Assembly: GCA_005887825.1 (NCBI GenBank)
Contig: VBQC01000001.1
Coordinates: forward strand, 1-37,520
Reading direction: 5' to 3'
DNA from: Verrucomicrobiota bacterium
GTDB lineage: Bacteria > Verrucomicrobiota > Verrucomicrobiia > Chthoniobacterales > UBA10450
DNA length: 37,520 nucleotides
Shown: piece by piece, positions 1 to 15,597 of the stretch
Numbering within the stretch: position 1 is the stretch's first letter
Layout of the letters: the number at the start of each line of letters is the position of its first letter
Notes under the pieces: generated by a model
Database searches by the model: none
Seen by the model: the letters and a program-made list of their open reading frames with translations, nothing else
What the model was told of the DNA's origin: nothing
Position numbers and translations under genes: made by a program

Positions 1-247
1 CCGTTCCGGTCGCATTGTCCGCGCAGGCGTCAGTGCCAAAATCGATGCTGCGCCCAGCGGAACACATTATGTGGGCGCATCGATGAAGTGGTTTATGCGG
101 CTAACGGCCGAAGGCATTGGAATGCATATCGGGATTTTGCCGGGATACCCCGCCTCGCATGGCTGTATCCGGATGCCGTCCGATGGAGCGAAATTATTTT
201 ACGATCACGTTAAAGTAGGCACTCCGGTCGACGTAGGCGATTATTAA
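1..247 (+). CDS. L,D-transpeptidase (YkuD), 3' part only
   Basis: This is the C-terminal end of a gene that begins before the window; the reading frame starts at base 2 and gives 81 residues before TAA. The sequence contains the YkuD catalytic signature: an H-x-G segment (GMHIG) followed by PGYPASHGCIRMP, which holds the catalytic His and Cys. Such enzymes act in the periplasm and make 3-3 cross-links in peptidoglycan or attach proteins to it. The N-terminal half, any signal peptide and any accessory domain are outside the window. It converges on cinA with only 27 bases between the two stop codons. The family assignment is firm; the substrate is not known. Confidence 0.9.
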   Translation, partial: RSGRIVRAGVSAKIDAAPSGTHYVGASMKWFMRLTAEGIGMHIGILPGYPASHGCIRMPSDGAKLFYDHVKVGTPVDVGDY

Positions 248-6327: not shown

Positions 6328-8019
6328 TCAACCAAGCTTCTTTTCCACGACGCAGTTAATTTCTTTGAACCGCGCCTCAGAATCTGCACTGATCTTCCGG
6401 ACCTTTTCAACGAACGCCGATTTCAATTTTTCATCTTTCAGCCCGGCCAGATTAATCCTTACATTCATGGCCGCCCCTTCGATGCAGGCGCGCGTCGCGA
6501 GAGCGCCAACGCCAACATCCGAAATGGAGGCAGGATTGCCCTTGTCGGCCATTTCGGAAAGCAGTTGGTAAGATTTGAACGCAGTTTCCATCGCCTTGAA
6601 TGGAATCTCGGCCGCATGTTTCGTCGCCTGCTCGATTGCCGCTGAGCGCGCGGCTTTTTCTTCCGCCGATTCCTTCGGCAACGCGAACGCGTCCATTACC
6701 TTGTTGAAGGCGGCGGTGTCTTCATCCACAAGCGAGAGCAATTCGTCTTTGAGTTGTTGCCCTTTCACTGCCCGGTCGCTGAAATACTCGAGCCTGTCGT
6801 CCCACCCGCGTTTTCCGGCGGAAAGATTGGCCACCATTCCGCCTAACGAAGCGCCCAACGCGCCCATTAACGCCGCCACGGAACCGCCGCCTGGTGCGGG
6901 CGAATCGCTCAACGTTTCATTGCAGAACTCGCGGAGGTTCACTTTTAATAACGATCTCTTGGAATCGGATTCGATCTTGAATTCAATCACCTTTTCTTTC
7001 GGGTCGAAAGGTTTCAACTCACTCAATCCCAATGAGCGAATCGCAATGTCGATCAGCTCTTCCTCGGAGGCGCCCTCCGACCATTGCTGCTTGCGGAGAA
7101 AATATCTTCCGGCATCTAACAGACACTTTTTCGGAACCATGCCGACGATTTCTGATCCCGTCACACGCAGGCCGCGTTTGTTCGCTGATTCGACGCAAGC
7201 GTCGAACGCAACATGCAAAGGTGTCTCCTCGATGTTCGTCAGGTTCATGGAAATCTGCGCGATTCCGTACTCTTCGACGTACCAACCAATGGCCTTCACG
7301 TGCTTCAACATTCCAGGAATGCGGACGGACTCACCGCTGGCATCCAACACCGGTTTTCCAAAAGGCGTCCCGTCTTCCGTTTTGACCCGTCCGTTTTCTC
7401 TCACATCAAACGCGACAGAATTTGCTCTTCTCACCGCTTTCGTGTTCAGGTTCACATTATACGCGATCAAAAAATCGCGTGCACCGATCACAGTTGCGCC
7501 CGATTTCTCATTGAAAATGGAAGGCCCAAACTCCGGTTTCCATGCGGGGCCTTTTATTTTCTCAAAAAAGCCTTCGTATTCTCCCGCGCGAACGACCGAG
7601 AGATTCGAGCGCGACGCGTTTTTTGCCGCTCTTTCGTAAAGATAGACGGGGATGCTCAACTCCTCGCCGACGCGTTTTCCCAACTTGTTTGCGCAAGCGA
7701 TCGCTTCTTCCCAACTGATGTTGCTCACTGGAATGAACGGGCAAACGTCGGTGGCGCCCATGCGCGGATGCGCGCCCTTATGTTTGCGCATGTCGATCAG
7801 TTCGGCCGCCTTTTTGATTCCGCGAAAGGCCGCTTCCACCGCGGCATCAGGACTGCCCACAAACGTCACCACCGTCCGGTTCGTACTCGCGCCCGGATCG
7901 ACATCGAGTAATGAAACGCCATCCACCGATTCAATGGCATCGGTGATCTGCCGAATGACCTCCAGATCGCGCCCCTCAGAAAAATTCGGCACACATTCAA
8001 TGAGCTTTCGCATAGTCAC
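6328..8019 (-). CDS. ftcD: Bifunctional glutamate formimidoyltransferase / formimidoyl-THF cyclodeaminase
   Basis: A 563-residue fusion close in length and layout to animal FTCD. The N-terminal formiminotransferase half begins MRKLIECVPNFSEGRD and has KGAHPRMGATDVCPF, where His84 matches the catalytic His82 of the pig enzyme once two extra N-terminal residues are discounted. The C-terminal cyclodeaminase half, from about residue 355, contains the typical SPAPGGGSVAAL segment. It moves the formimino group of formiminoglutamate to tetrahydrofolate, then releases ammonia to give methenyl-THF. This replaces HutG or the HutF/HutG route, neither of which is present here. The start could be 8019 or 8013 (two in-frame ATGs). 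Confidence 0.96.
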   Translation of the reverse strand: MTMRKLIECVPNFSEGRDLEVIRQITDAIESVDGVSLLDVDPGASTNRTVVTFVGSPDAAVEAAFRGIKKAAELIDMRKHKGAHPRMGATDVCPFIPVSNISWEEAIACANKLGKRVGEELSIPVYLYERAAKNASRSNLSVVRAGEYEGFFEKIKGPAWKPEFGPSIFNEKSGATVIGARDFLIAYNVNLNTKAVRRANSVAFDVRENGRVKTEDGTPFGKPVLDASGESVRIPGMLKHVKAIGWYVEEYGIAQISMNLTNIEETPLHVAFDACVESANKRGLRVTGSEIVGMVPKKCLLDAGRYFLRKQQWSEGASEEELIDIAIRSLGLSELKPFDPKEKVIEFKIESDSKRSLLKVNLREFCNETLSDSPAPGGGSVAALMGALGASLGGMVANLSAGKRGWDDRLEYFSDRAVKGQQLKDELLSLVDEDTAAFNKVMDAFALPKESAEEKAARSAAIEQATKHAAEIPFKAMETAFKSYQLLSEMADKGNPASISDVGVGALATRACIEGAAMNVRINLAGLKDEKLKSAFVEKVRKISADSEARFKEINCVVEKKLG

Positions 8020-8087
8020 AGAATTTCTAGACAGGATTTACGCGATTGACCGGATTGCAAGGAAAGCGAATCGTTAATACGTAAGTT
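8020..8087. repeat. Degenerate ACAGGATT-type repeat in the hutU-ftcD gap
   Basis: The gap contains GACAGGATTTACGC followed by GATTGACCGGATTGC, two imperfect copies of a short word. The spacing and style resemble dispersed intergenic word repeats in Verrucomicrobia and Planctomycetes genomes, as I recall them. No hairpin with a T-run is present, so read-through from hutU to ftcD is plausible. Confidence 0.35.
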
Positions 8088-9755
8088 TCAATCTCGCCGT
8101 TGCGGGCGCATTGGGATGTCGATCTTGTTTGTGGCGGCGAATTCGATCGCGCGGGAATAGCCCGCGTCGGCATGACGGAGGACGCCCAATCCCGGATCGC
8201 TCGTTAGAACGCGCTCGAGACGAGGTTTGGAATTTTCGCCGCCATCGGCGACTACGACCATGCCGGCGTGCTGCGAATAGCCGATACCGACGCCGCCGCC
8301 GTTGTGAATCGACACCCAGGATGCGCCGGTGGCTGTGTTGATGAGCGCGTTGAGCAGCGCCCAATCGGCAATCGCATCGCTTCCGTCGATCATCCCCTCG
8401 GTCTCGCGGTTGGGCGACGCTACCGAGCCCGCGTCGAGATGGTCGCGCCCGATCACGATGGGCGCTTTGATTTCGCCGCGCTTCACCAACTCGTTCATTG
8501 CGACGCCGAACTCTGCGCGCTCGCCATAGCCGAGCCAGCAAATCCGCGCCGGCAATCCTTGAAAGTGAATTCGTTCTCGCGCGAGCTTCATCCAGCGCGC
8601 GAGCGTCTGGTCTCTCGGAAACAATTCGAGCGCGAGCCGGTCGGTGCGCGCGATATCTTCGGGATTGCCGCTCAACGCGACCCATCGAAATGGCCCGCGA
8701 CCTTCACAAAACAGCGGACGAATGTATTCGGGAACAAACCCGGGAATATCGAATGCATTCTCGATGCCAGCCTTTTTCGCCTGCGCGCGAATGTTGTTTC
8801 CGTAATCAAAAGTGATGGCCCCTTTTTTTTGCAGAGCGAGCATGGCCTCGACGTGAACGCCCATCGAATGCATTGCCCTGTCGATGTATTCCTCGGGACT
8901 TTTCACACGTAAGGCGAGCGCGTCTTCGAGTGATATTCCGTGCGGTACATAGCCATTCAACGCGTCGTGCGCGCTAGTTTGATCCGTTAGGATGTCCGGA
9001 ACGATGCCGCGCTTCACGATTTCCGGCAGGACATCGGCACAATTACCGACGAGTCCGACAGAAAGCGATTTCCGATTCTTGCGCGCATCGTCAATCATTC
9101 GCAACGCTTCATCGAGCGAGTGCGCGATCTTGTCGCAATAACCGCTCTTTAATCTTTTCTCGATCCGCGACGGATCGACCTCAAGGCCAAGAAAAACTGC
9201 GCCATTCATGGTTGCAGCAAGTGGTTGGGCGCCGCCCATCCCGCCGAGTCCGCCGGTTAAGACAAATTTTCCTTCCAGCGATCCGCCGAAATGTTTGCGT
9301 CCGGCGGCAGCGAACGTCTCGAACGTGCCCTGCACGATTCCCTGGCTACCAATGTAAATCCACGAACCGGCGGTCATTTGTCCGTACATGGTAAGGCCCA
9401 TTTTCTCGAGGCGATTGAATTCCGTGTAGTTCGACCACTGACCGACAAGATTGGAATTCGCGATCAGAACGCGCGGAGCTTCTTCGTGCGTCCGGAATTT
9501 TCCCACGGGCTTTCCAGATTGGACAAGGAGCGTCTCGTTGTTTTCGAGATTGTGCAGGGATTGAATGATCGCCTCGAAAGCTTCCCAGCTCCTGGCGGCG
9601 CGACCTGTTCCGCCGTAAACGACAAGCCGGTCTGGGGCTTCGGCTACATCCGGATCGAGATTGTTCATCAGCATCCGCATCGCGGCTTCCTGATGCCAGC
9701 CTTTGCAACTGCGCTGGGTGCCGCGCGGGGCGTGGATGATTCGTTTTCCGCTCAT
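8088..9755 (-). CDS. hutU: Urocanate hydratase
   Basis: A 555-residue enzyme of normal urocanase length that converts urocanate to imidazolone-propionate with tightly bound NAD+. The early motif [13 protein letters not shown], the Gly-rich NAD-binding stretch [11 protein letters not shown] (168-178), and the segment ICWLGYGER with the conserved active-site Cys are all present. The C-terminal [16 protein letters not shown] motif is also intact. The ATG at 9755 overlaps the hutH stop codon by one base (TGATG), so translational coupling is likely. An in-frame GTG just upstream at 9758 is a less likely start. Confidence 0.98.
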
Positions 9756-11263
9756 CACGTTTCGTAGCCGCTGTCAAAATCGCCTCGGCGAATCGCTTCG
9801 GCAACCCGTGCAATGTCGCCGGAGAGGGGACGATCTTGCGTGAGAGGTCGCGCAATTTCCCTCAACACAGCAAAAGCCTTTTCCACACCGGTCCCGGCCT
9901 TAAGCGGGCGCCGGTATTCCAAAGCTTCGGCGCCAGCGAGCAACTCGATCGCCAGCAAATTTTCTGCAAGATCAACAATTTCCCGGAATTTCAATGCGCC
10001 CGTCATTCCCATCGCAACGTGGTCTTCTTTGCCAGCGGAGGTGGGAACATTGTCGATGCTCGATGGGTGCGCGAGCACTTTCGCCTCGCTAAGCAGAGCA
10101 GCCGCAGCAACGTGCGCGATCATGAAGCCTGATTCCATGCCGGGATGCCGGGCCAGAAACGCGGGCAAGCCTTCGTTCGTGTCCGGATTGAGCAGGCGCT
10201 CGATTCGGCGCTCGCTAATGCTCATCAGGTCCGTTACCGCGATGGCGGCGTAGTCGAATACGAGGGCCAGTGGCGCGCCGTGAAAATTGCCACCCGAAAT
10301 GACGTCTCCGCTCTCAGCGAACACAAGTGGATTATCGGTCGCCGACGCAGATTCGATGAGAAGCACATCCTCGCAATGCGACAGCGCGCCGCGCGCGGCA
10401 CCGTGCACCTGCGGCATACAACGCAGGCTGTAGGCATCCTGGATACGCGGATCGTTCTCGAGATGCGATTGGCGAATCTCGCTTCCTTCCAGAATCACCA
10501 ACAGATGTTTGGCCGCCGCTCTTTGTCCAGGATGCGGCCGCGCGTCTTGCAACCGCGGATCGAACGCGGCAGGGGTGCCTTTCAGCGCCTCGAGACTCAT
10601 CGCGCCTGAAACATCGGCCACATGAGAGAGCCGTTTCGCGCGCAGAAGCGCGAGCCCGCCCACTGCATGCATAGCCTGGGTGCCATTTAGCAACGCGAGT
10701 CCCTCTTTCGCTTCCAGCCGATGGGGCTTGAGACCGGCCCGGCTAAGCGCTTCGCCGCTTTCCATTCGTTCAGCTTTAAAAAAGGCATCGCCCTCGCCAA
10801 TCAGGCTCAATGCGAGATGAGCGAGCGGCGCGAGATCGCCGCTGGCGCCCACCGAACCTTTTTCCGGAACGACTGGATGCACGCGACGATTAAGCATCTC
10901 ACAAAGCATTTGGATGACTTCGGGACGGATTCCGCTAAGCCCGAGCGCAAGCACGTTTGCGCGGAGCAACATCATCGCGCGCACCTCCGGTTCCGAGAGT
11001 GGCTGGCCGATTCCGCAGGCGTGGCTGCGAACAAGATTCAGCTGGAGCTCGCCCAACGCATCGCGCGGGATGCGAACATCAGAGAGTTTGCCAAAACCCG
11101 TGCTGACGCCGTAAACGGCGGCATCACGCGCGATGATTTCTTCGACAAGTTTGCGCGAAGCCAGAATTCGCGGGCGTGCGAGGGTGGAAATTTCAACTGC
11201 CTGACCACTGAGCGCAACCGCAGCGATATCGGCGAGTGTCAATTTCTGACCGTTTAATTCCAT
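9755..11263 (-). CDS. hutH: Histidine ammonia-lyase
   Basis: A 502-residue lyase that deaminates histidine to urocanate, the first step of the Hut pathway. The Ala-Ser-Gly triad that cyclises to the MIO electrophile is at 140-142 within [15 protein letters not shown], and the catalytic Tyr is in YGVSTGFG (Tyr51). Its length and motifs match HAL rather than phenylalanine ammonia-lyase, and the hutU, ftcD and hutI neighbours confirm the pathway. It is the first gene of the run; a strong hairpin terminator 80 bases upstream isolates it from the preceding small genes. No hut regulator is adjacent and no clear Shine-Dalgarno site is seen. Confidence 0.98.
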
Positions 11264-11344: not shown

Positions 11345-11376
11345 AAAAGGCCAGGTCGACCGTGACCTGGCCTTTT
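11345..11376 (-). terminator. Rho-independent terminator after the small lipoprotein pair
   Basis: A perfect 13-base stem (AAAAGGCCAGGTC with its complement) closes a six-base loop at 11358-11363. On the minus strand it is followed by T5-C-T6. It lies between the small lipoprotein gene and hutH, so it should end the upstream transcript and isolate the hut run. The A/T ends of the stem also allow weaker function on the + strand. Confidence 0.9.
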
Positions 11377-11417: not shown

Positions 11418-11531
11418 TTATTTCCCGTACGTGCTTGGAGGTGGGGTGACTTCCTTGTGTTGCGCACAAGCCCCGAGTCCCAAAGCAGTGACCAGCACCG
11501 CCACGATCATGATCGTTTTTAAAAGTTTCAA
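11418..11531 (-). CDS. Small lipoprotein, copy A (37 aa)
   Basis: A 37-residue predicted lipoprotein starting with TTG at 11531, preceded by a strong AGGAGG site nine bases away; this site decides the start. A short basic N-terminus (MKLLK), a hydrophobic core and a lipobox LGAC (Cys22) are followed by a 15-residue tail, AQHKEVTPPPSTYGK. It is a tandem paralogue of the gene at 11643-11765 (AxSLGACAQHKE versus ALGLGACAQHKE). The size recalls entericidin-like lipoproteins, but there is no convincing match, so the function is unknown. A strong terminator follows 41 bases downstream. Confidence 0.78.
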   Translation of the reverse strand: MKLLKTIMIVAVLVTALGLGACAQHKEVTPPPSTYGK

Positions 11532-11616
11532 TCTATCTCGCCTCCTTTCCCAGCAAGTTGCTCCGGTCTGTTTAGGCAGGGAACTGCAGGGAAGCAACGC
11601 TTTTCTCAACTTTTTT
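11453..11616. repeat. Tandem duplication, unit A
   Basis: This 164-base segment is repeated at 11687-11850 with an offset of exactly 234 bases and about 20 mismatches by eye (roughly 88% identity). It spans most of the lipoprotein gene plus 85 bases of leader. The leader part differs at only about five positions, the coding part at about fifteen. Confidence 0.88.
11569..11597 (-). promoter_or_regulatory. Candidate sigma-70-like promoter, copy A
   Basis: On the minus strand, TTGCTT and TAAACA are separated by exactly 17 bases, ending about 38 bases before the TTG start. The same boxes and spacing are kept in the second copy while the coding parts diverge. The segment can also pair with itself (GTTGCTTCC against GGAGCAAC), so a leader hairpin is an alternative reading. 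Confidence 0.45.
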
Positions 11617-11642
11617 GAACAGATCACAACCGGGCGCCGGAC

Positions 11643-11765
11643 CTATTTTGCGTAACCGGTCGTGCCCGCCCCTGTGGTCACTTCCTCCTTGTGTTGGGCG
11701 CAAGCACCTAAGCTCAAAGCACTGGCTAAAACAGCCACGATCATGATCGCTTTTAAAAATTTCAA
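11643..11765 (-). CDS. Small lipoprotein, copy B (40 aa)
   Basis: A 40-residue paralogue of the copy A gene, also starting at TTG with the identical AGGAGG site nine bases upstream. It has MKFLK, a hydrophobic core, lipobox LGAC (Cys22) and the tail AQHKEEVTTGAGTTGYAK. The AQHKE after the lipid-modified Cys is shared, while the C-terminal tails differ. No terminator separates it from copy A, though copy A carries its own candidate promoter. The function is unknown; a surface or outer-membrane lipopeptide is an inference from the lipobox. Confidence 0.78.
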   Translation of the reverse strand: MKFLKAIMIVAVLASALSLGACAQHKEEVTTGAGTTGYAK

Positions 11766-11850
11766 TCTATCTCGCCTCCTTTCGTAGCAAGTTGCTCCGG
11801 TTTGTTTAGGCAAGGAACTACAGGGAAGCAACGCTTTTCTCAACTTTTTT
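11687..11850. repeat. Tandem duplication, unit B
   Basis: This is the second copy of the 164-base repeat, 234 bases from the first. It includes the leader, the AGGAGG site and most of the lipoprotein reading frame. The leader end AAAAAAGTTGAGAAAAGCG is identical in both units. Confidence 0.88.
11803..11831 (-). promoter_or_regulatory. Candidate sigma-70-like promoter, copy B
   Basis: TTGCTT and TAAACA with 17 bases between them on the minus strand, in the same position relative to the TTG start as in copy A. Conservation of boxes and spacing across the duplication is the main support. Confidence 0.45.
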
Positions 11851-11921
11851 GGATGTATCGAAATGGCGCACATTTCAATTTGCAAGGTCCAGAGTCGGGC
11901 AAGTTCAAAACTTACCAGCTT

Positions 11922-12371
11922 TTATTCTTCGATCACGACGGGCGCGCCTACATCGACAAGATCGAACAACTCGATGACGTCCGCATTACGCATCCGCACG
12001 CATCCGTGGCTCGCCGGGTTGCCGATTTTGTCCTCGTGTTTGGTGCCGTGAATGTAAATGAAACGTTCGCGCGTGTTCGTGTTGTGCTCATCCAAGCCAT
12101 CAAGCCATAGTATGCGCGACATCACCAAGTCCCCAGTCGGAGGAAGCGGATCGTCGGCTTTCAGCGGCACGCGACTTTGAAAAACAGTATCGCTCGGCAG
12201 GCCGTCGCCGATCTTCTCTGCAACGCGAAAGCGACCGATCGGTGTTTTCATGCTGCCTTCTTCCGTCCCGATCCCAAATCGCGAAGTGGACACCGGGTAA
12301 GTGCGGATTAGCGTCTCACCTTCCTTCAATGTGAGGCGCTGATCGCGAATCGAAATGTGAACGTTTTTCAT
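11922..12371 (-). CDS. YkuD-domain L,D-transpeptidase without visible signal peptide
   Basis: A 149-residue protein that is essentially one YkuD domain. The catalytic motif is complete: IHGTKH with His108, then SHGCVRM with His122 and Cys124. Substrate-side motifs SMKTPIGRF and GDLVMSRILWL also fit the family. The protein begins MKNVHISIRDQRLTL, already inside the domain's first strand, so no signal peptide or membrane anchor is visible. Either export is non-classical, the true start is elsewhere, or the enzyme is cytoplasmic. It lies upstream of the two small lipoprotein genes on the same strand, 156 bases from copy B. ATG start at 12371. Confidence 0.88.
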   Translation of the reverse strand: MKNVHISIRDQRLTLKEGETLIRTYPVSTSRFGIGTEEGSMKTPIGRFRVAEKIGDGLPSDTVFQSRVPLKADDPLPPTGDLVMSRILWLDGLDEHNTNTRERFIYIHGTKHEDKIGNPASHGCVRMRNADVIELFDLVDVGAPVVIEE

Positions 12372-12594: not shown

Positions 12595-13617
12595 ATGAAA
12601 GGCTATCACATCGCCGTCGTTGGGGCGACTGGCGCGGTCGGTCAGGAACTCTTGCACGTGCTCGAACGGCGAAATTTCCCAGTGGCAAGTCTGCGGCCGA
12701 TCGCTTCGGCGCGTTCCGCCGGGAAATCTGTTCGATTTGGAGATGAATTGATCTCGGTAGACAAACTCGTCGATCACTCTTTTGAAAAAATCGACATCGC
12801 GTTTTTCTGCGCCGGCGGCGAGGTCTCGCGAAAATATGTGCCGATTGCCTGCCAGGCAGACGCGATTGCGATCGATAACTCCTCCGTTTTTCGAATGGAA
12901 CCGCACGTGCCGCTGGTCATTCCCGAGATTAACGTCGAAGATGTGCGAGGACACCGCGGTCTCATTTCGAATCCAAATTGCACGACGGCGATCGCGCTGA
13001 TGGCGCTTTATCCTTTGCACCGCGTGTTTGGCGTGCGCCGGATGTTTGCTGCGAGCTATCAAGCCGTTTCCGGCAGCGGCGCGCGCGCAATCGAAGAGTT
13101 GACCCAGCAAGTGAAAGACGCAGCGCGAGAACCTGTCGTGAATGCGAGTCGAACGCATCTACCGCATACGTCGCAAGTTTATCCGCATCCGATCGCGTTC
13201 AATCTTCTCCCACATGTCGATTCATTTCTCGAGAGTGGTTACACCAAGGAAGAAATGAAAATGCAAAATGAAGGACGCAAGATCATGCACCTTCCGGAAT
13301 TTCGCGCCTCGGCGACCTGCGTGCGCGTGCCCGTTTATCGCGCGCACTCAGTCGCGGTAAGCGCGGAATTCGAACGCTCGGCATCGGTAGAGCAAGCGCG
13401 CGAGGTTTTGGCCAAAGCGCCGGGACTGGAATTGGTTGACGAGCCACAGAGCAATCGTTATCCCATGCCGCTAAGCGTCGCCGGAAAAGACAATTGTCAG
13501 GTGGGCCGCATCCGCATCGATTGCGCTCTTGAGAACGGGCTTTCCTTTTGGGTATCGGGCGATCAACTGCTCAAAGGCGCTGCTTTGAACGCGGTGCAAA
13601 TTGCGGAGTTGTTGTAG
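12595..13617 (+). CDS. asd: Aspartate-semialdehyde dehydrogenase
   Basis: A 340-residue enzyme that reduces aspartyl phosphate to aspartate semialdehyde with NADPH. This is the branch point for lysine/diaminopimelate, threonine and methionine synthesis. The NADP-binding loop GATGAVGQ is at 10-17 and the catalytic Cys129 lies in SNPNCTTA. The conserved His region RVPVYRAHS is near residue 245. Length is normal for the family. It stands alone on the + strand between two minus-strand blocks and ends before a strong GC-rich hairpin. No clear Shine-Dalgarno site precedes the ATG. Confidence 0.97.
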   Translation: MKGYHIAVVGATGAVGQELLHVLERRNFPVASLRPIASARSAGKSVRFGDELISVDKLVDHSFEKIDIAFFCAGGEVSRKYVPIACQADAIAIDNSSVFRMEPHVPLVIPEINVEDVRGHRGLISNPNCTTAIALMALYPLHRVFGVRRMFAASYQAVSGSGARAIEELTQQVKDAAREPVVNASRTHLPHTSQVYPHPIAFNLLPHVDSFLESGYTKEEMKMQNEGRKIMHLPEFRASATCVRVPVYRAHSVAVSAEFERSASVEQAREVLAKAPGLELVDEPQSNRYPMPLSVAGKDNCQVGRIRIDCALENGLSFWVSGDQLLKGAALNAVQIAELL

Positions 13618-13731: not shown

Positions 13732-15597
13732 TTATTGGGGGCCAGGAGTAGGAGACGTTTCCTTGCCTTTCTTTTGCCCGCCTTGTGGTTTTTCGTGACC
13801 AGGCGCGCCGCCAGGAGAAGACCGCCCAGCGGAAGCTCCGCCGCGCTGACCATAGGCACCCTGCCCTCGCTGTCCTCCACTCCCGGGGCTCTCGTGAGGA
13901 GCCGCGCCCTTTGTGGCAGGAGGCACCGTTCCGGTTTGTTCAGGTCCGCGTCCTCTAAATCTTCCCTGCGGCTCATTTGTAGTGCCGCCAGGTTGCGCGG
14001 GGCTCGGACTGGCAACGCCGCGTTCAAATTGTCCTCTGTTCTTGCTAGGTGGCTGCGTTGCCTCAGGCGCAACCGGAGCGGCACCGGGTTGCTCACGTCC
14101 GCGTCCTCTAAATCTTCCCTGCGGCTCGTTTGTAGTGCCGCGAGGTTGCTCAGGGCTCGGACTGGGAACGCCGCGTTCAAATTGTCCTCTGTTCTTGCTA
14201 GGTGGCTGCGTTGCCTCAGGCGCAACCGGGGCCGCGCCGGTTTGCCCGAGCGGCGACTTGCGTGGCGGTGGCCCATGAGGGGGCGTCGGGCTCGTTTCGA
14301 ACCTGCCCCTCCCCGGCCTGCCGTATTCTTCTCCAGCTGGAGAACCTTGAATACGTGGAGAAGGCGGGCCAGCCGGTGACCTCGCTGGTGTGCCAGTCAG
14401 ACTCGGTTGGGGTTGTTCGCCGGGTCGGCCTCTCCGTTTGCCTCTTTCAAACGGCGCTCCTGTTGCGCGCGGAGAACCCGTTGGACTTCCAGTAACACCC
14501 GGTGTGCCCGTGGCACCCGGTTGAACTCGTCCACCCGGCCGACCATGCCTGCCTTTTTCAAATGGCGATCCTGTAGCGGCCGGTGAAGCGATTGGACTCC
14601 CGCCCGCGGTCGCTGCAGGTGCAGTGGCAGATGGCGAACCACCAGCCGGTCCTCGTCCCGCCGCGGCGCCGGTTGGCGGCGGAATACTCTTTGGATTCTC
14701 GGTTTTAATTTTTTGCTTTAGCTGCGCTTCGTTAGGAACACCGGCCCAGCCTTTCTCGATTTTTGGCTTGGCGACTTTCGCTTTTACGCTCGGAGGCGCT
14801 GCCCCCGGAGCTGATTTAGTCAGTTTCTGAGGAGCAGCGACCACAAGTTTGCCGCCTTGGACTTTTGTCAGCGCTCCGGATTTCGCTGCCGCGGACAAAT
14901 TGGTCGCTGACTCCCGCGTGATGCTCAGGCGCTGAATGGGCCGGCTGGAATGCGCGCTCAGCACGTTGTAATCAGGACCATAATTATATACGACATTGTT
15001 CCTAACGGAAATGTTGGTCACGTTCACCGTGTTGTTGATATAGGTGACGTTTTGCGACGGTGCGAAGATGCGATCGCGCAAGACCGGCTCACCGATAAAA
15101 CGAACATCGACGAAGTTGTAATACTCGGGACCGATATCAAATTCGATATCCGCCTGTGCGCCAATAGGCTGTCCCTCGTAAACAACCCCCGGGCCGCGCG
15201 GTGGCAACGGCGCCCAGCCGACATAATCCCCACCTGTTCGCCACGAAACCCACGCCGGACCCCAGTCCAGATCGCTGCCGGGGAACCAGACCCAGCCGTA
15301 ATCGGCCAGGCGCGCCCAGCGCCCATAATGGTAAGCAGCCCAGCCGAAATCTTCGTACGAGATCCATGTCCATCCGTCATCCGTGTAGGCCCAGTAGCCA
15401 TCAGCATAAGGACGCCAATTCGGGTCGTTCACCGCCAGATCGGGTTGCCACCCGTAGCCGTAGTCTGCAACCTCAATCCAGTTTCCTCCGGAAAGATTGT
15501 TGTAGAAGAAATCAATCGACATATCGTCTGCCCGCGCACCCGGCAAGGCAGGCAAGACAAACGCGAGCATCGTTAACGCAAAAAGTATTCTTTTCAT
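13732..15597 (-). CDS. Secreted W/Y-rich protein with Pro/Gly-rich repetitive tail (DUF6600-like)
   Basis: A 621-residue protein with a clear signal peptide (MKRILFALTMLAFVLPALPGARA). Residues about 25-150 hold repeated Trp/Tyr/Gly motifs such as DGYWAYTDDGWTWISYEDFGWAAYHYGRW, which I recognise from memory as the DUF6600 type of uncharacterised exported proteins. A short Asn/Val-rich stretch follows. The C-terminal half, from about residue 290, is low-complexity Pro/Gly/Ala/Arg sequence with motifs like PFEKGRHGRPG and GRFRGRGREQ. It includes a 51-residue tandem repeat. The function is unknown; an envelope or extracellular role fits the signal peptide. A hairpin terminator follows. No Shine-Dalgarno site is seen at the ATG. 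Confidence 0.85.
   Translation of the reverse strand: MKRILFALTMLAFVLPALPGARADDMSIDFFYNNLSGGNWIEVADYGYGWQPDLAVNDPNWRPYADGYWAYTDDGWTWISYEDFGWAAYHYGRWARLADYGWVWFPGSDLDWGPAWVSWRTGGDYVGWAPLPPRGPGVVYEGQPIGAQADIEFDIGPEYYNFVDVRFIGEPVLRDRIFAPSQNVTYINNTVNVTNISVRNNVVYNYGPDYNVLSAHSSRPIQRLSITRESATNLSAAAKSGALTKVQGGKLVVAAPQKLTKSAPGAAPPSVKAKVAKPKIEKGWAGVPNEAQLKQKIKTENPKSIPPPTGAAAGRGPAGGSPSATAPAATAGGSPIASPAATGSPFEKGRHGRPGGRVQPGATGTPGVTGSPTGSPRATGAPFERGKRRGRPGEQPQPSLTGTPARSPAGPPSPRIQGSPAGEEYGRPGRGRFETSPTPPHGPPPRKSPLGQTGAAPVAPEATQPPSKNRGQFERGVPSPSPEQPRGTTNEPQGRFRGRGREQPGAAPVAPEATQPPSKNRGQFERGVASPSPAQPGGTTNEPQGRFRGRGPEQTGTVPPATKGAAPHESPGSGGQRGQGAYGQRGGASAGRSSPGGAPGHEKPQGGQKKGKETSPTPGPQ
13944..14245. repeat. Two tandem 153-base units inside the secreted protein gene
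   Basis: Unit starts at 13944 and 14097, an offset of 153 bases or 51 codons, keep the reading frame. Each unit encodes the series PEATQPPSKNRGQFERGV, a Ser/Pro stretch, then TNEPQGRFRGRG. Few differences (for example GVPSPSPEQPRG versus GVASPSPAQPGG) point to a recent duplication; the second unit's downstream edge is approximate. Confidence 0.85.

Follow-up and report, generated by a model that had tools for sequence, protein, structure and literature searches.

Two tandem genes of a Chthoniobacterales bacterium encode putative minimal Lpp-like outer-membrane tethers

Introduction

In Escherichia coli, the L,D-transpeptidases LdtA-C are described as joining the terminal lysine of Lpp to meso-diaminopimelate (PMC12729407). 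The C-terminus of Lpp reads S/RYTK in Vibrio and Photobacterium, and in Dickeya a single C-terminal lysine is reported to be necessary and sufficient for attachment, which a tyrosine at position -3 improves (PMC12274547). For Methylacidiphilum fumariolicum, the lipoprotein WP_009060351 is reported in membrane and peptidoglycan fractions, and its authors suggested a covalent tether (PMC10260701). A gap of about 35 angstrom is reported for Coxiella burnetii LimB27 and two barrel proteins (PMC12729407, PMC11841132). For the question of how diderms outside Proteobacteria bind the outer membrane to the wall, a terminal lysine offers a sharp and testable prediction.

Genes of 36 to 43 codons, often started at TTG, are easily overlooked, and searches of open-access PMC full text gave no paper that we recognized as a description of the lipoprotein family reported here. 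We estimate a probability of roughly 0.6 that two such genes of a verrucomicrobial genome encode minimal Lpp-like outer-membrane tethers outside the Lpp family, with attachment to the wall predicted from their anatomy.

Results

The window analyzed is a stretch of 37,520 nucleotides on contig 195 of a 3.06-Mb draft genome. It was originally predicted to carry two tandem, tiny, TTG-started lipoprotein genes, and both proved real. On the minus strand, copy A (11643..11765) comprises 40 codons and ends in TAG, and copy B (11418..11531) comprises 37 codons and ends in TAA. The copies have in common the arrangement GAAAGGAGG-N9-TTG, in which the Shine-Dalgarno sequence lies at 11775..11783 for copy A and at 11541..11549 for copy B (both minus strand), as well as the lipobox LGAC and the motif CAQHKE. 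They belong to a duplicated unit of 166 nt (11452-11617 and 11686-11851; identity 88%, spacing 234) that is well above chance, copy B being matched by a copy A query at an E value of 4.3e-55. The product of copy A is a 40-residue precursor with the predicted mature sequence CAQHKEEVTTGAGTTGYAK (19 residues) and the C-terminus Tyr-Ala-Lys; that of copy B is a 37-residue precursor with the predicted mature sequence CAQHKEVTPPPSTYGK (16 residues), a proline-containing linker and the C-terminus Tyr-Gly-Lys. Read along the minus strand, the gene order is ykuD, copy A, copy B, a terminator and hutH, with a divergent argC (12595-13617, plus strand) upstream beyond ykuD. The window also holds the histidine utilization genes FTCD, HutU and HutH (6328-11263) and a gene for a 621-residue protein with a DUF6600 domain (13732-15597). 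The spread of the family through the order, its C-terminal lysine, the adjoining L,D-transpeptidase gene and the common terminator formed no part of the original prediction.

Of 83 genomes in the taxonomic family (f1), 70 contain relatives of copy A, as do 29 of the 30 of good quality, which bears out that the lipoproteins are conserved as proteins. We built a profile from 24 members, which the window's copies A and B match at E values of 8.5e-23 and 2.7e-18, respectively. With a threshold of E <= 1e-3, it matched 183 of the 213 genomes in the order (101 of 112 good-quality genomes; 41 of 45 genera), the matches that were opened having E values of about 3e-7 or lower. In a phylum-wide draw of 288 genomes, six matched at E <= 1e-5, all of them in the order Chthoniobacterales, and two listed genomes of the order had no match; because the protein is short and variable, the draw would be weak evidence of absence elsewhere. 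Loci that carry the gene include records named Verrucomicrobia, Candidatus Udaeobacter, Spartobacteria and Chthoniobacterales. The gene was also seen at 80% identity in VBKE01000450.1, a record titled Deltaproteobacteria that is probably a misbinned contig (L109).

Adjacent paired copies are frequent in the window's genus (g1), and the other genera mostly have one copy at that place; genome G072 is an exception, and G069 and G100 each have a second locus. The toxin/antidote pair ecnAB is a known case of tiny lipoproteins in tandem, and the two genes could by analogy form an entericidin-like pair or include a lysis lipoprotein. We regard this as very improbable: one copy per locus is the usual state outside the genus, and no match to PF08085, which we take to be the entericidin family, was obtained at E <= 1 for the two window proteins or at E <= 0.1 for seven relatives. 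Three genera have an additional locus at a distance from ykuD, where an intact copy B comes after a degenerate copy A (L031, L082, L094), and G011 holds a B-type copy with only a partial copy A match (L024); these four loci may reflect transposition or mixed draft genomes.

C-termini were read from 96 distinct genes of 69 genomes and 12 genera of the taxonomic family, together with 51 genes retrieved by profile search, of which one belongs to f1 and 50 to 12 other families of the order. Lysine is the last residue in all 146 complete members, which share descent and thus are not 146 independent events; the remaining gene is cut by a contig end (L240), so that the two sets stand at 96/96 and 50/51. 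Tyrosine occupies position -3 in 73% of the 146, giving Tyr-x-Lys, and position -2 is variable (Ser 60%, Gly 16%, Ala 14%). Omitted from these counts were five hits that lacked an acceptable start, four of which end in lysine and the fifth of which is a 111-residue, proline-terminal frame judged unrelated (L107, E 0.006), and one hit outside the lipobox pattern with the C-terminus GYSK (L236). Precursors span 36 to 43 residues and, the cut member aside, mature parts 15 to 22. As judged from the motif, the lipobox cysteine is precursor residue 22 in 93 of 96 genes and falls one residue later in the other three. Between the lipobox and the C-terminus, the linker varies in both length and residues. 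A terminal lysine with a tyrosine at -3 is the anatomy of an Lpp box and leads to the tether reading.

Several controls bear on the terminal lysine. In 330 kb of the window genome, 25 of 312 open reading frames of at least 90 residues end in lysine, as do 7 of the 96 best YkuD frames, taken one per locus. None of the four larger lipoprotein-like frames in the same 330 kb is lysine terminal, a sample too small to settle the matter. The terminal codon alternates between AAA (67 times) and AAG (29 times), indicating that the residue, rather than the DNA, is what is kept. Differences at codon positions 1, 2 and 3 in the first 81 bases amount to 1251, 432 and 1856 over all pairs among 22 copies A and to 907, 664 and 1531 over all pairs among 22 copies B, a pattern suggestive of protein-level selection in a test that covers mainly the signal peptide. 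A terminal lysine alone would nevertheless be no proof of attachment, because such a residue is reported in over 20% of E. coli periplasmic proteins and lipoproteins (PMC12274547).

Immediately upstream of copy A lies a gene for a YkuD-type L,D-transpeptidase (11922..12371, minus strand; 149 residues) with the catalytic motif SHGCVR and no signal peptide, which matches PF03734 at 90.3 bits (cut-off 23.4). When second copies are included, 89 of the 96 genes from the taxonomic family have a same-strand ykuD no more than 700 nt upstream, as do 29 of 50 genes outside the family; the other 21 showed no ykuD upstream in the fetched stretch, which in one instance included little upstream sequence. 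Overall, a YkuD frame is present at 96 of 125 loci. Among the 92 neighbor proteins with a complete N-terminus, S-x-G-C is invariably kept; 71 have SHGC, 13 have SCGC and 8 have another variant, so that the histidine is replaced in 21. A hydrophobicity scan for signal peptides flagged only one of the 92, and there within a long frame extension. HutH matches occur downstream in the taxonomic family, and none was found at 51 loci of other families. Across the order, the neighboring ykuD often adjoins a divergent argC, and the order argC-ykuD-lipoprotein could be plain regional synteny.

As it lacks a signal peptide, the neighboring enzyme may fail to encounter the lipoprotein in the periplasm. 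The window genome has 13 YkuD matches, however, and some of the other YkuD proteins begin, by eye, with N-termini resembling signal peptides or lipoboxes; any of these could be the joining enzyme. The genome also matches LspA, LolA and one OmpA-type domain. A partial second YkuD domain was seen at the edge of the window (77-235, plus strand).

Searches against curated families placed the proteins in none of them. PF04728 (Lpp) matched none of nine proteins, the two of the window and seven relatives, and nothing in the window genome, although the control search detected E. coli Lpp. NF040598 (the Lpp/OprI alanine-zipper family) reached 13.6 bits in one of the seven relatives, vs a cut-off of 43. 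LptM, DUF4223, YgdI/YgdR and PG1828 gave subthreshold matches only, and entericidin none. Small lipoproteins with few conserved residues are known in non-covalent roles, and these genes might encode one of that kind, an LptM-like assembly helper or an envelope-stress lipoprotein in which the lysine serves for charge or protease protection. The LptM model (NF047847) does match two of the seven relatives below threshold, at 13.1 and 13.4 bits (cut-off 27.7), the neighboring YkuD has no signal peptide, and retention of AQxKE behind the cysteine in much of f1 weakens the argument from two conserved ends. Still, all curated family cut-offs were missed, and conservation at both ends around a variable linker resembles a tether more than a binding motif. 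We therefore consider a non-covalent role unlikely, at about one chance in four, and favor the tether reading.

Upstream of each gene, TTGCTT-N17-TAAACA had been proposed as a promoter. In copy A, the -35-like TTGCTT (11826..11831, minus strand), whose position is kept in relatives, and the -10-like TAAACA (11803..11808, minus strand), which reads TATAAA in several members of genus g24, are separated by a spacer of 17; the same two elements lie at 11592..11597 and 11569..11574 (minus strand) in copy B. The proposal is borne out by position, the best -10-like hexamer lying 24 to 27 nt ahead of the Shine-Dalgarno sequence in 112 of 142 leaders, and only modestly by consensus, which the window's sites match at 6 of 12 bases. 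At least 8 of 12 consensus matches were reached by 35 of the 142 leaders vs about 16 expected in shuffles, which were mononucleotide and scanned over slightly fewer offsets; a promoter scanner run on the window found none. Within the taxonomic family, aligned leaders for the most part share an A-rich tract, a -35 TTGC, a TA-A hexamer as the -10, GC-N5-GC and GAAAGGAGG, and much of this pattern recurs in other families of the order, in agreement with the expectation that the leader is kept in related genomes. Five leaders with a poor Shine-Dalgarno sequence were left out of the set.

A gap of 6 bases between -35 and -10 was observed in some copy A leaders (G001, G010, G014, G015, G019, G021, G022, G025, G027, G030, G031, G032 and G034). 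In the two of these for which the best hexamers were read, they shift upstream, to TTGACA-N16-TGTGAT (G001) and ATGACA-N16-TGTAAT (G019), a possible promoter replacement.

Downstream of copy B lies an intrinsic terminator, a 13-pair stem followed by a T run (11345..11376, minus strand). Among 22 tandem pairs of the genus, a terminator follows copy B in 21 (150 nt searched) and copy A in none (105 nt searched), so copies A and B probably share the one after B, which would end transcripts from both. Overall, a terminator lies within 120 nt downstream of 108 of 143 genes vs 1.3 in mononucleotide shuffles.

The leader of the window genome had been judged by eye to be better conserved between the copies than the coding part, at 5 of 85 vs 15 of 79 differences; counting gave nearly the same, 5 of 85 in the leader vs 16 in the first 81 coding bases. 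This contrast is strong in the window genome, which is among the most extreme, and weak in general. Over the 22 tandem pairs, leaders differ at 0.200 when substitutions only are counted and at 0.309 with gaps, vs a mean of 0.253 in the first 81 coding bases, and the leader lies below the coding part in 14 of 22 pairs by substitutions and in 6 of 22 with gaps. Selection on the whole leader, as had been suggested, thus generalizes weakly: it accords with the count by substitutions and not with the count that includes gaps.

Recent gene conversion had been put forward as the other explanation for the similar leaders. With gaps, the nearest leader is the same copy in a different genome for 39 of 44, and the window genome is the one case in which the two leaders are each other's nearest, by about one base. 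Without gaps, 41 of 44 are nearest to the same copy elsewhere, the window's copy A leader being nearest to the second copy of G003. Of the 44 coding starts, 42 fall with their own copy type; the window's copy A and the second copy of G003 do not, and they are mutual nearest. Two sister genomes (G006 and G016; G018 was left out, its leader being shifted) provide 8 leader columns and 18 coding columns that distinguish A from B. In the leader columns, the window's copy B is A-like at 6 and B-like at 1; in the coding columns, it is A-like at 7 and B-like at 9. These columns suggest that gene conversion overwrote the leader of copy B with that of copy A in the window genome, but the A-like state may be an ancestral one retained in copy B.

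A pairing of GTTGCTTCC with GGAGCAAC had been offered as a possible RNA fold in the leader, and this part of the original prediction was not supported. With an RNA leader of about 35 nt, as the predicted promoter implies, one side of the pairing would be the -35 box and the other would lie in the transcript. All five core pairs of the proposed fold form in 65 of 142 leaders, covariation is slight, and fold stability is not general (mean z -0.67 in 86 leaders of the taxonomic family).

The predicted 5' UTR of copy A is short and contains the conserved GC-N5-GC element AGCAACTTGCT (11786..11796, minus strand), which could possibly form a 3-pair mini hairpin. Covariation is weak, with 12 two-sided cells vs 5.8 in shuffles, none of 500 shuffles reaching 12. 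A manual pair count spoke against the hairpin, with the outer two pairs scoring 108 when slid by -3 vs 95 in the true register; a second slide test gave 75.9% in the true register vs at most 39.0%. RNAalifold predicted no pairs in a 47-sequence alignment, the two short UTRs folded no better than shuffles, and an Rfam search of the window returned no family at its gathering score. As a conserved RNA, then, the leader retains at most a marginal 3-pair hairpin after Rfam, single folds, consensus fold, z-scores and pair counts.

These results bear on whether the leader itself, as a structured regulatory RNA, is the conserved functional unit and the coding part is secondary. The positions of -35 and -10, GC-N5-GC and the Shine-Dalgarno sequence are conserved in much of the order, the count by substitutions and the weak hairpin covariation point the same way, and the window genome's leader, if transcribed from upstream, folds with z -2.7 and a paired Shine-Dalgarno sequence. 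The empty consensus fold, the mean z, the ordinary short UTRs and the Rfam result all argue against it, as do the 16 of 22 pairs in which leaders differ more than coding starts once gaps are counted and the excess of differences at codon position 3 in the coding parts. We judge a regulatory-RNA role of this kind improbable, roughly a one-in-ten prospect, and return to the proteins as the conserved unit.

The two copies differ consistently across the 22 tandem pairs of the genus. Copies A end in Tyr-x-Lys, have mature parts of 19 to 20 residues and are free of proline in all 22. Copies B contain one to four prolines in all 22, measure 15 to 18 residues in 21, and have the tyrosine in 5, having lost it in the other 17. 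In at least three genomes (G003, G004 and G009), a decayed piece of ykuD lies between the lipoprotein copies, and the duplicated unit there was therefore ykuD plus lipoprotein.

Discussion

In the tether reading, a 21-residue signal peptide would direct export and lipidation of the cysteine at precursor residue 22, and the acyl groups would sit in the outer membrane, as the +2 residue is alanine and not aspartate. A linker of 13 to 20 residues, rich in Thr, Ser, Ala or Pro, would span to the cell wall, where an L,D-transpeptidase would link the terminal lysine, mostly part of a Tyr-x-Lys box, to meso-diaminopimelate of peptidoglycan in the manner described for Lpp. Promoter-like sites and a strong ribosome site in front of each gene would drive its expression. 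The gene would have been duplicated in the window's genus, after which copy A presumably stayed at 19 to 20 residues, free of proline and ending in Tyr-x-Lys, while copy B became mostly shorter and proline-containing and retained the terminal lysine.

The length of the mature part weighs against a tether: 15 to 22 residues are fewer than the 58 of Lpp, and for so short a chain to reach the wall, either it would have to be extended or the periplasm would have to be narrow. Should the tether reading be true, it would bear on the minimum length of a natural tether and on periplasm width. A broader proposal, to which we give slightly less than even odds, is that the order uses covalent tethers of 15 to 22 residues, among the shortest that are genetically encoded, and that Udaeobacter-type members use a single transcription cassette to produce two kinds of tether, one flexible and ending in Tyr-x-Lys, the other stiffer and rich in proline.

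The family resembles Lpp in its lipobox, in its C-terminal lysine and, for most members, in the tyrosine at -3, and the window genome encodes several L,D-transpeptidases. It is unlike Lpp (PF04728; NF040598) in having no alanine-zipper helix, a mature part of 15 to 22 rather than 58 residues, and no match to either model. In Dickeya dadantii, L,D-transpeptidases are described as attaching OutB to peptidoglycan through a Lys-ended Lpp box; OutB differs in being an inner-membrane protein of a secretion system (PMC12274547). Compared by their published descriptions, the closest precedents appear to be the Methylacidiphilum lipoprotein and Coxiella LimB27. WP_009060351 comes from the same phylum and is reported to have Lpp-like conserved Cys, Tyr and Lys residues, but it comprises 139 residues with a 53-residue C-terminal domain, vs precursors of 36 to 43 residues here (PMC10260701). 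LimB27, an outer-membrane lipoprotein, is described as using a lysine for its bond to peptidoglycan; that residue is the internal Lys21, and the protein is gammaproteobacterial and also linked to metal binding (PMC12729407, PMC11841132), whereas the candidate tethers of Chthoniobacterales carry their lysine at the very C-terminus.
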